From Stappia stellulata (lineage in GTDB: Bacteria; Pseudomonadota; Alphaproteobacteria; Rhizobiales; Stappiaceae), in contig NZ_JAIVMF010000001.1 in NCBI RefSeq assembly GCF_020176715.1, positions 62,001 to 126,000 on the forward strand: DNA of 64,000 nucleotides, written 5' to 3'. Position 1 is the first letter of the stretch; every line of letters starts with the position of its first letter. Position numbers and translations under genes: made by a program. The notes under the pieces are model-generated. The model had not been told where the DNA came from, did not search any database, and saw only the letters and a list, made by a program, of their open reading frames with translations. Below, piece by piece: positions 1,959 through 3,901 of this stretch.

Positions 1959-2100
1959 CGCGCGGCATAAGCCGAAAACCGCAGCCATTCCGCGCCGTTT
2001 CGCCGGGCGTTTGCGCGCATGTCTGTGCGCGCCGCGTCCGGGCGTGTCGCTCCGGGATGGTGCAATGCACAATCCGCACGCCTGCCATGCAAACAATGCA

Positions 2101-2197: not shown

Positions 2198-2347
2198 ATG
2201 TTCGACTCACTTGCGCGCAAGTACCGCACCTGGCGGACTTACCAGAACACCGTCTCCGAGCTGTCGCGCCTGTCCACGCGCGAGCTTGACGACCTCGGCA
2301 TCGCCCGCGGCGACATTTCCTTCGTCGCCCGTCGCGCCAGCCGATAA
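2198..2347 (+). CDS. DUF1127 microprotein (CcaF1/YjiS-like), copy 1
   Basis: A 49-residue basic protein with the DUF1127 pattern: an N-terminal helix (SLARKYRTW), the ELSRLSTRELDDLGI core and an RGDI segment near the C-terminus. DUF1127 proteins are small arginine-rich proteins with RNA-related roles; in Rhodobacter sphaeroides one (CcaF1) is encoded directly upstream of the CcsR sRNAs and affects RNA processing. The start is the ATG preceded by GAGG at 2189-2192; a longer upstream frame lacks family similarity. About 30 of 49 residues match the second copy at 2687. A three-hairpin RNA follows eight bases after the stop, so the sRNA is probably cut from this mRNA. Confidence 0.9.
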   Translation: MFDSLARKYRTWRTYQNTVSELSRLSTRELDDLGIARGDISFVARRASR

Positions 2348-2354
2348 CAGCTCA

Positions 2355-2481
2355 CGATCAAAGAGATAGACCTCCTCCCCTGTCTCTTTGTCGTGTTCGG
2401 GCGGGACCTCCTCCTCCCAATCCCGTCCGACCATTGCGTCGCCCGCCGGTCCTCCTCCCTCCGGCGGGCGATCGCATTTTT
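2355..2481 (+). ncRNA. CcsR/alpha-r14-like anti-Shine-Dalgarno sRNA, copy 1
   Basis: Three consecutive hairpins each expose CCTCCTCCC in the loop: stem 2360-2366/2383-2389 with motif 2371-2379; stem 2399-2406/2421-2428 with motif 2410-2418; stem 2440-2449/2461-2470 with motif 2451-2459. The third stem is a perfect 10 bp, extended below a single bulged T (2472) by further pairs, and followed by five Ts (2477-2481), so it is also an intrinsic terminator. CCUCCUCCC in hairpin loops is the hallmark of the CcsR sRNAs of Rhodobacter and the alpha-r14/NfeR1 sRNAs of rhizobia, thought to pair with Shine-Dalgarno regions. The exact 5' end is unknown. Confidence 0.85.
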
Positions 2482-2567
2482 GCGGAGCATCCCGGCGGCC
2501 ACCGCCGCGAGCGGCCAGATGCGCCGCGCTTCCGTTTTCCGGCTTGCAGGATCTGCATGACGGGCAT

Positions 2568-2608
2568 GCGGAATGAGCGCATTCCGCTTCCGGGGACTCA
2601 CCCCATAT
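2568..2608 (+). promoter_or_regulatory. Putative promoter/operator of second DUF1127 gene
   Basis: A perfect 8-bp inverted repeat with a 4-base centre (GCGGAATG-AGCG-CATTCCGC, 2568-2587) is followed by a GANTC site (GACTC, 2595-2599) and ACCCCATATC (2600-2609), which resembles a heat-shock-type -10. The same GANTC-ACCC(C)ATATC arrangement occurs at 3026-3039 before the second sRNA. No convincing -35 box is seen. Confidence 0.35.
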
Positions 2609-2686
2609 CCAAGCAAGAAGAGAGTGCTGCAGCGCAACATGCGCGGCGCATCTCACCCCAGACAGATCCAGACGATGGAGTTTCCA

Positions 2687-2836
2687 ATGCTCGACAATCT
2701 CGTGCGCAAATATCATTCCTGGCAGAAGTACCGTCGCACCTATGACGAACTGTCCCGCCTGTCCAATCGCGAGCTGAACGACCTCGGCATCGGCCGCGGC
2801 GACATCGACTTCATTGCCCGCAGCAACATGCGCTAA
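2687..2836 (+). CDS. DUF1127 microprotein, copy 2
   Basis: A 49-residue basic protein and paralogue of the gene at 2198, with the same core (ELSRLSNRELNDLGI) and RGDIDF near the end. GGAG at 2677-2680 lies six bases before the chosen ATG; an in-frame ATG at 2675 would add four residues but lacks a good ribosome site. Unlike copy 1 it is separated from the next CCTCCTCCC sRNA by its own strong intrinsic terminator, so the two are probably separate transcription units. The two gene-plus-sRNA modules look like a tandem duplication. Confidence 0.9.
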   Translation: MLDNLVRKYHSWQKYRRTYDELSRLSNRELNDLGIGRGDIDFIARSNMR

Positions 2837-2875
2837 TCCGTCGCGGTCCTGAACGGGCCGCCGGATTCTTGCCTC

Positions 2876-2913
2876 AAAAAGCGCCGGCCGGTTTCCTCCG
2901 GGCGGCGCTTTTT
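2876..2913 (+). terminator. Rho-independent terminator after DUF1127 copy 2
   Basis: A 10-bp stem (AAAAAGCGCC with GGCGCTTTTT) closes a C/T-rich loop and ends in five Ts. It sits about 40 bases past the DUF1127 stop. The five As on the left arm make it usable from both strands. Confidence 0.85.
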
Positions 2914-3025
2914 GCATTCTGAATCAGCAGTTTGCTCATGAATGCACCGCAACATTCACGAAAGTGAATTGCTACCCGCTCTGCGGGGGGCAGCTATGCA
3001 GGAACCGCTCTGGAAATCCCGGCGC

Positions 3026-3037
3026 GAGTCACCCATA
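3026..3037 (+). promoter_or_regulatory. Putative promoter core of second CcsR-like sRNA
   Basis: GAGTC (3026-3030, a GANTC site) runs directly into ACCCATATC. The spacing predicts transcription starting about 10-15 bases before the first sRNA hairpin. The motif matches the region upstream of the second DUF1127 gene (2595-2608). The -35 element is not recognisable. Confidence 0.35.
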
Positions 3038-3042
3038 TCACT

Positions 3043-3172
3043 GTTATCGGGTTCGGGCGCACCTCCTCCCAGCGCCTTGAGCCTGACTCGACCGGCGCTC
3101 CTCCTCCCAACGCCGGTCACAATCGAAAACGACGCCCACCGGTCCTCCTCCCTCCGGTGGGCGTTCGTTTTT
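3043..3172 (+). ncRNA. CcsR/alpha-r14-like anti-Shine-Dalgarno sRNA, copy 2
   Basis: A second three-hairpin RNA with CCTCCTCCC in every loop: stem 3056-3060/3072-3076 (motif 3062-3070); stem 3090-3097/3111-3118 (motif 3100-3108); stem 3133-3142/3154-3163 (motif 3144-3152). As in copy 1, the third stem is a perfect 10 bp with a bulged T at the same place in its lower extension, followed by five Ts (3168-3172). Stem sequences differ from copy 1 by paired changes (for example GCCGG/CCGGC against ACCGG/CCGGT), while the loops are unchanged. Such covariation is strong evidence of a functional RNA. It appears to be an independent transcript of about 130 nt. Confidence 0.88.
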
Positions 3173-3292: not shown

Positions 3293-3901
3293 ATGTCGCT
3301 CGATACCGCCAGTCCAGGCCTTCCGGCCTTCTACGACGACCTCGACCTGACGCTTGAAGAGATCAGCCTCAGGCTCACCGACGGTGTGCGCAACCGGCGG
3401 TCCGCGTTTCACACCCCGGCGGTCGCGACGGTGACCCCGCAGAACACCCCGGACGTGCGCCGGATGGTCCTGAGGGGCGTGGACAAGTTGCCCCTGACGC
3501 TTCGCTTCCATACCGACAAACGCAGCGGCAAGGCGCATCAAATTCATCAAAATTCGAGCGGATTTTGCGAAATTTACGACTCAGATTGCAAAATTCAGCT
3601 CAGATTGAGCTGTCGGCTGACCCTTTTGCAGGACGGCGAAACGGTCGAGCGGGCCTGGTCCGCGACCCGTCCGATGAGCCGCGCCTGCTACCGGATCGAG
3701 ACCGGGCCCGGCACAGAAATCCCCGCGCCCGGCACGGCCGTCTACGACACCGGACGCCCCGACGAGGGACGGGCGAATTTCGCCGTACTGATGGCCGAGG
3801 TCTTGCGGATGGAGTGGCTCTATCTCGCGGCCAGAGGCCATGCACGGGCGCGCTTCGAACGGGCCGGCGACGGCTGGACGGGATGCTGGCTCGCGCCGTG
3901 A
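3293..3901 (+). CDS. Pyridoxamine 5'-phosphate oxidase-like FMN-binding protein
   Basis: A 202-aa protein of the Alr4036-type pyridoxamine-phosphate-oxidase-like family. The RSAFHTPAVATV start of the fold, the RMVLRGVD strand, the HTDKRSGKAHQI and KIQLRLSC region and the MEWLYLAARGHARARF C-terminus are recognisable. It probably binds FMN; the substrate is unknown. A notably AT-rich patch (about 3537-3612) lies within otherwise GC-rich coding sequence, covering a segment that is poorly conserved in such proteins. Start is the ATG after CAGGGAA. Two copies of GTGAGATCA, 16 bases apart (3258-3266 and 3274-3282), lie just before the ribosome site. Confidence 0.8.
   Translation: MSLDTASPGLPAFYDDLDLTLEEISLRLTDGVRNRRSAFHTPAVATVTPQNTPDVRRMVLRGVDKLPLTLRFHTDKRSGKAHQIHQNSSGFCEIYDSDCKIQLRLSCRLTLLQDGETVERAWSATRPMSRACYRIETGPGTEIPAPGTAVYDTGRPDEGRANFAVLMAEVLRMEWLYLAARGHARARFERAGDGWTGCWLAP

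Follow-up and report, generated by a model that had tools for sequence, protein, structure and literature searches.

Positions 2198-3172 of the 64-kb stretch of Stappia stellulata DNA analysed here (the window) carry a conserved island in which two DUF1127 genes are paired with two ar14 small RNAs. The most probable reading (about 0.7) is that an LsrB/VtlR-type activator serves three promoters in this island, and that both RNAs are anti-Shine-Dalgarno regulators co-produced with the DUF1127 proteins.

The order is DUF1127 gene 1, RNA1, DUF1127 gene 2, RNA2. An initial annotation, made from the letters of the sequence, had described this alternation, and both it and the coordinates given there hold against the matches to PF06568 (DUF1127) and RF02344 (ar14), with both modules complete:

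2198..2347, + strand: DUF1127 gene 1 (49 aa; PF06568 50.6 bits, cut-off 23.3)
2353..2481, + strand: RNA1, an ar14 sRNA in the putative 3' UTR of gene 1 (RF02344 73.5 bits over 2353-2476; fold z -9.4; covariation)
2687..2836, + strand: DUF1127 gene 2 (49 aa; PF06568 58.5 bits, cut-off 23.3)
2875..2914, + strand: intrinsic terminator after gene 2, between gene 2 and RNA2 (-30.7 kcal/mol, z -5.3; equalled by 1/200 shuffles)
3042..3169, + strand: RNA2, an ar14 sRNA, apparently its own transcript (RF02344 71.7 bits; fold z -7.0; covariation)

Both genes pass the PF06568 cut-off; NCBIfam gave no useful name for them or for the LysR protein described below. Among named relatives, the gene 2 protein is closest to those of the MAG Rhodobacteraceae SP118 (100% identity) and Stappia stellulata DSM 5886 (94%); other Stappia come next. 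The island is flanked upstream by the end of uvrA (57-1922) and downstream by a PNPOx-like gene (3293-3901).

Seven ar14 matches were found in the source genome (4.55 Mb, 58 contigs), and RNA1 and RNA2 are the only two above the gathering score of 58.8 bits. Covariance models for ar14 and CcsR had been named as a check on the initial annotation; the RNAs proved to be ar14 (73.5 and 71.7 bits) and not CcsR, as CcsR1 (RF02791) scores 23.5 and 22.8 bits, far under its cut-off of 65.3. RNA1 starts about 5 nt past the gene 1 stop codon with no box between the two, as expected if it is joined to the gene 1 mRNA. RNA2 apparently stands alone, as had also been proposed: it lies about 200 nt past gene 2, behind a strong terminator, and has its own upstream region, conserved in an alignment of 13 Stappia (L055 was omitted because the search pattern missed its gene 2). 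The terminator was absent from the list of the terminator scan and was revealed by folding; a comparable hairpin of -21.3 to -33.7 kcal/mol follows gene 2 in 13/13 Stappia.

Alignment of 14 Stappia showed a conserved block upstream of gene 1, and the putative promoter elements of the island are as follows:

2066..2091, + strand: gene 1 operator box, LsrB/VtlR-type, 26 bp (TGCACAATCCGCACGCCTGCCATGCA), conserved in Stappia and one of two zero-mismatch sites in the genome
2124..2129, + strand: gene 1 -10-like hexamer CTACTT, starting 33 nt past the box end
2545..2570, + strand: gene 2 box, LsrB/VtlR-type, 26 bp (TGCAGGATCTGCATGACGGGCATGCG), PWM score 18.1, a one-mismatch site in the genome
2603..2608, + strand: gene 2 -10-like hexamer CCATAT, 33 nt past the box end
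2975..3000, + strand: degenerate RNA2 operator box, of which the right end (GCAGCTATGCA) alone is kept in this species, with a fuller box in several other Stappia
3033..3038, + strand: RNA2 -10-like hexamer CCATAT, 33 nt past the box end

Transcription would start near 2136 for gene 1, near 2615 for gene 2 and near 3045 for RNA2. The two different promoters envisaged initially are replaced by three putative ones, before gene 1, gene 2 and RNA2, with the same spacing between box and -10 element, although at RNA2 just the right end of the box is present and four of seven motif bases are missed. The simplest reading of three promoters with equal spacing is one activator for all.

A 26-bp position weight matrix (PWM) trained on Stappia gene 1 boxes alone, in which the pattern matched 13/14, gave 18.1 at the gene 2 box of the window, a score reached by 0/239 background segments. 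At RNA2 in the window it found nothing above background (best -2.3, 45/239 segments as high). The RNA2 box scored 15.8 to 21.0 in six other Stappia loci (L051, L052, L056, L057, L058, L061), 10.6 in L059 and 6.3 in L063, and with the same matrix the gene 2 box was not found in 7/13 Stappia. Other DUF1127 genes of this genome, on contigs C10 and C34, were without a box. After retraining on nine distinct boxes, with the 99% background level as the pass mark, 61/75 DUF1127 upstream regions and 7/9 stand-alone RNA upstream regions passed in other genera of the family, compared with 23/33 (training set included) and 10/13 in Stappia and 55/98 and 25/78 in the named loci L122-L176; these counts take in second genes of clusters, many without a box. 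Across the whole genome the box pattern occurred at 41 sites with at most two mismatches, whereas its reversed control occurred at 15. The top four sites lie before gene 1, before a 74-aa ORF, before gene 2, and on contig C21 without a -10-like hexamer.

The site before the 74-aa ORF is the second with zero mismatches (L191, G000:C5:65478-65503, minus strand) and has CCATAC at offset 33. This ORF, which has no Pfam or NCBIfam match, may also belong to the regulon. At L253 (G000:C18:31213-31238) there is a box with two mismatches and, at offset 33, TTATAT. In 28 of the 49 boxed first-gene promoters of the family an inverted second box overlaps the first, shifted by nine bases, as if two dimers sat side by side.

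Spacing was measured with a wider PWM, built from 40 distinct Stappia and rhizobial boxes, and a loose -10 pattern. The pattern stood at offset 33 past the box end in 90/118 boxed DUF1127 promoters and 35/47 boxed promoters of stand-alone RNAs; of the other offsets tried, the most frequent were 32 (25/118) and 35 (17/118) for DUF1127 genes and 39 (13/47) and 44 (11/47) for RNAs. A promoter scan for TTGACA/TATAAT found none, so the -35 elements are poor. Poor -35 elements are expected of activated promoters, without being proof of activation.

The regulator is suggested by the published VtlR/LsrB motif, GCAT-N3-TG-N3-T (PMC7486931; PMC8844928), which falls inside the 26-bp box. In the window it is matched with one mismatch at gene 1 and one at gene 2, and with four of seven bases mismatched at RNA2. 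The exact motif was present upstream of the first DUF1127 gene in 94/108 loci (9/14 Stappia, 32/36 other family loci and 53/58 named loci), compared with 10/500, 7/500 and 10/500 in background segments (about 2%); with one mismatch allowed, 108/108 loci matched, on a background of 28 to 38%. Upstream of stand-alone RNAs it was exact in 31/100 cases (0/13 Stappia, 5/9 other family and 26/78 named; background about 1%) and present with at most one mismatch in 56/100 (background 18 to 28%). The named loci in this test were L119-L176; another 22 (L097-L118), mostly repeats, were omitted. At abcR1 the motif is reported at -61 to -49 (PMC8844928), and the RNA2 site would sit at about -60 to -48, given a start near 3045.

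An LsrB orthologue is present in the genome: a LysR gene adjoining trxB. The best PDB match of its product is 9HH1, LsrB of A. tumefaciens, at 434.8 bits, with the next best at 114.9. In the published work consulted, LsrB binds and activates the NfeR1 promoter (PMC10746234), while VtlR directly activates abcR1 and atu1667, the latter an orthologue of VtlR-activated Brucella genes (PMC7486931) that are reported to be DUF1127 genes (PMC12595884).

Behind the LsrB orthologue lies a further putative RNA (L185:1852-1982, minus strand), a C-rich hairpin that has CCTCCTCCC in one loop, an end resembling a terminator, and CTTGAA-N17-GCATAT. It can be called abcR-like by position and promoter alone, because it scores 23 bits for ar14 and a search of its own locus gave no Rfam match at E 0.1. 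The offset of 33 is common to this RNA, gene 1, gene 2 and RNA2 in this genome.

In this species RNA2 would belong to the predicted LsrB/VtlR regulon by its place and spacing. The initial annotation had proposed two inputs with the same anti-Shine-Dalgarno output, and in its revised form genes 1 and 2 would be under LsrB and RNA2 under another signal, for example a heat-shock sigma factor acting at -35 CTGGAA and -10 CCCATAT. Sigma-32 sites have a -10 element like (C)CCCATAT and a -35 element CTTGAA; the -10 elements of RNA2 and gene 2 read (C)CCCATAT, and the -35 of RNA2 is one base off. Moreover, the RNA2 box is degenerate in the subclade of the window, and the comparable locus of Rhodobacter is reported to have an RpoHI/RpoHII promoter (PMC10253847), which counts against a single activator. 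We nevertheless consider a second input unlikely, since RNA2 retains part of the box, its right end, together with the spacing of 33 nt, several other Stappia have a fuller box in the same place, and the TTG of the -35 is not conserved, as judged by eye from the Stappia alignment. A sigma-32 promoter for RNA2 was considered and disfavoured on this last ground, even though the -10 fits.

The initial annotation had also noted the same motif in six loops, and each is exact by motif search:

2371..2379, + strand: RNA1 loop 1, CCTCCTCCC
2410..2418, + strand: RNA1 loop 2, CCTCCTCCC
2451..2459, + strand: RNA1 loop 3, CCTCCTCCC
3062..3070, + strand: RNA2 loop 1, CCTCCTCCC
3100..3108, + strand: RNA2 loop 2, CCTCCTCCC
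3144..3152, + strand: RNA2 loop 3, CCTCCTCCC

Two isolated copies elsewhere in the 64-kb window (16891 and 37558) are probably due to chance, and the opposite strand of the window has none. Minimum free energy folding gave three hairpins per RNA, with CCUCCUCCC unpaired in every loop, at z = -9.4 for RNA1 and -7.0 for RNA2; 0/200 shuffles folded as well in either case. Among 126 distinct copies with three exact motifs (variant-loop copies and the repeat loci L097-L118 being excluded), 120 placed all three in hairpin loops of their own, five placed two and one placed one, whereas 0/630 block-shuffled controls had three motifs in loops and 14 had two or more.

The stems vary by compensatory changes, as the initial annotation had seen between copies, and they covary in relatives. 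Two-sided changes affected 12/41 pairs in RNA1 (15 sequences, from 12/14 Stappia and three relatives) and 12/40 in RNA2 (12/14 Stappia). The covariation score was 0.225 for RNA1 (shuffled mean 0.131) and 0.243 for RNA2 (shuffled mean 0.154), reached by 0/500 shuffles in both cases, where the shuffles ignore kinship and the structure is derived from the window copy; in the RNA2 control a slide of -1 gets to 0.153. One of five measures, the number of further pair types, was not above shuffles (460/500 as high for RNA1, 497/500 for RNA2). The bulged T described in the last stem is found in both RNAs, at T2472 in RNA1 and at T3164 or T3165 in RNA2, and the RNA1 pair adjoining it flips from U-A to A-U among relatives (7 UA, 5 AU and 3 unpaired, n = 15). 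The RNAalifold consensus of a mixed 35-copy alignment recovered just hairpin 3 and part of hairpin 2, apparently because hairpin 1 was misaligned; genus-level alignments were used in its place, and a covariance model built from this poor consensus was discarded.

Hairpin 3 of RNA1 with its T-run (2477-2481) is terminator-like, and it could be argued that the main role of both RNAs is to terminate small mRNAs or stabilise their 3' ends, without activity in trans, as each unit is ended by hairpin 3 and a T-run, and RNA1 directly follows a stop codon. This is very unlikely in view of the identical 9-mer in all six loops despite varying stems, the upstream region that RNA2 possesses without a gene of its own, and the reported need for these loops in silencing by NfeR1 (PMC10746234).

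In the family, ar14 matches at E 0.01 were found in 85/87 genomes, over the cut-off in 61/87, and in an even draw from the order at E 0.001 in 103/297; both surveys were run with stricter filters. Sixty stretches from 59 family genomes, picked among the matches listed, were mapped; with the window added and eleven loci of one genus (g6) set apart, they comprise 50 family loci. In 50/50 of these, loops follow the first DUF1127 gene, 48/50 have at least two DUF1127 genes (the exceptions being L038 and L041), and 35/50 have the order gene-RNA-gene-RNA. Five Stappia (L051, L052, L056, L057, L061) have a third gene-RNA module. The end of uvrA lies at most 700 nt upstream in 8/14 Stappia, 32/36 other family loci and 5/58 of the named loci L119-L176.

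Tandem ar14 arrays behind one DUF1127 gene were observed in L037 (four copies) and in L050, L076 and L085 (three each). In the g6 loci (L064-L074), one exact loop is present in 9/11, two in one and three in one, and a DUF1127 gene was found nearby in 0/11; the ar14 RNA seems uncoupled or changed in this genus.

The initial annotation stated that ar14 RNAs stand alone in rhizobia. In the named loci L122-L176, mostly rhizobia, CCTCCTCCC loops preceded the matched DUF1127 gene by at most 700 nt in 40/55 and lay solely downstream of it in nine more, so that the statement is not borne out as worded; as these loci were chosen by DUF1127 similarity, they are silent on the share of unlinked ar14 copies.

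Judged from sequence comparison, RNA1 and RNA2, like gene 1 and gene 2, are old lineages, and the twin has been maintained in relatives. A tree of 64 ar14 copies, taken as three-exact-loop copies from the family plus L120 and L121, separates 50 copies that follow a first gene from 14 that follow a last gene by one branch (support 100/99). Stappia and two other genera supply the 14; second RNAs with fewer exact loops than three, as in most Roseibium-like loci, are outside the tree. For the DUF1127 genes, 5 changes account for the labels first, middle and last on a tree of 95 proteins, where shuffled labels need 35.7, though these proteins are short and their deep split has weak support (76/85). 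The modules, called apparently duplicated at first, are indeed two and complete, but not the product of a recent event, as the lineages are old. That one gene-RNA unit was recently duplicated in tandem, with no separate function for the copies, as the gene-RNA-gene-RNA order and the tandem arrays and third modules of some relatives might suggest, is barely credible given the labels of the genes, even with the weak deep split of the proteins, and is contradicted for the RNAs by the single 100/99 branch.

Under the preferred model of one activator, an LsrB/VtlR-type LysR protein would drive three sigma-70-type promoters of one architecture. P1 would give the gene 1 mRNA with RNA1 as its 3' UTR, P2 the gene 2 mRNA, with a terminator of its own, and P3 RNA2 as a primary transcript; RNA1 would probably be released by RNase E-type cleavage. 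The three CCUCCUCCC anti-Shine-Dalgarno loops of each RNA may then silence mRNAs by pairing with their ribosome-binding sites, in the manner of ar14/NfeR1 in Sinorhizobium, for which three redundant loops, Hfq-independence and silencing of ntrB through these motifs are reported (PMC10746234). The co-produced DUF1127 proteins would probably tune either the RNAs or a sensor kinase: CcaF1, a DUF1127 protein of Rhodobacter, is described as binding RNA and maturing CcsR (PMC10253847), and short DUF1127 proteins of Agrobacterium as acting on PhoR instead (PMC12501420). These functions are carried over by homology and are thus putative for Stappia.

Candidate targets were sought in the genome. The perfect 9-mer complement, GGGAGGAGG-N3-12-ATG, gave few sites (6, against 3 in the reversed control), and GGAGGAGG-N3-10-ATG gave 28, against 5, an excess that may reflect just ordinary Shine-Dalgarno sequences. 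Pfam searches with 20 of the 21 resulting ORFs of at least 60 aa gave no more than leads, among them two E1 dehydrogenase components and three parts of ABC transporters. The two E1 genes (L228, L231) start behind GGAGGAGG and are possible targets; they recall a link between CcsR and pyruvate dehydrogenase that appears in the title of a cited paper.

More tentatively, DUF1127 proteins might be dedicated partners of ar14 RNAs in the order, with one LsrB-type activator making both and the arginine-rich protein handling the Hfq-independent RNA in maturation, stability or pairing. We regard this as possible, if somewhat doubtful. If true, it would explain why gene and RNA stay together and would supply the missing chaperone of NfeR1, a gap left in PMC10746234. 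On this view the partner that an Hfq-independent RNA still lacks could be a DUF1127 protein.

Parts of this picture have been described separately, namely the RNA family, the protein family and the association between them; DUF1127 genes next to RNAs of this kind have been published under the name CIN1 locus. The original paper on the CIN1 locus reportedly dates from 2015. Three- and four-hairpin CCUCCUCCC families were described in 2011 (PMC3927594). In the literature searched, CCUCCUCCC was not found together with DUF1127, although reports may exist elsewhere; nor was DUF1127 found together with NfeR1 in the LsrB, VtlR, DUF1127, NfeR1 and AbcR1 literature searched, and Stappia literature, at listing level, gave nothing on this locus. 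As far as searched, the new elements are the old maintained twin, in which one ar14 copy is a putative 3' UTR and its sister has a predicted promoter of its own, and the LsrB/VtlR-type box with a -10-like hexamer at a 33-nt offset that DUF1127 genes share with many stand-alone ar14 genes. The literatures on DUF1127 under VtlR and on ar14 under LsrB are hereby joined into one testable regulon.

Three known systems are comparable. The island resembles ar14/NfeR1 (Smr14C2; RF02344) in its three hairpins with CCUCCUCCC in each loop, variable stems and terminator-like hairpin 3, and, in relatives, in the LsrB-type box; it differs in that RNA1 would be the 3' UTR of a DUF1127 mRNA and that there are two old paralogues per locus. 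It also resembles the CIN1 locus with its cuckoo RNAs, ccaF1-CcsR1-4 of Rhodobacter sphaeroides, in which a DUF1127 gene is followed by CCUCCUCCC RNAs. A CIN1 locus is defined as a short DUF1127 gene with CcsR-like sRNAs (PMC10253847), and both are present here. In the Rhodobacter locus a single gene and four CcsR RNAs are described, together with an RpoHI/RpoHII promoter (PMC10253847), whereas here there are two genes, two ar14 RNAs and apparently three units with LsrB/VtlR-type boxes; a joint transcript of the CIN1 type, involving RNase E and the DUF1127 protein, would fit the layout of gene 1-RNA1 only. Finally, the VtlR/LsrB regulon of Agrobacterium, Brucella and Sinorhizobium, with abcR, DUF1127 genes and NfeR1, is matched by a box near GCAT-N3-TG-N3-T, where binding of the regulator is predicted here, and by the neighbourhood of trxB and lsrB, in which a C-rich hairpin RNA follows lsrB.
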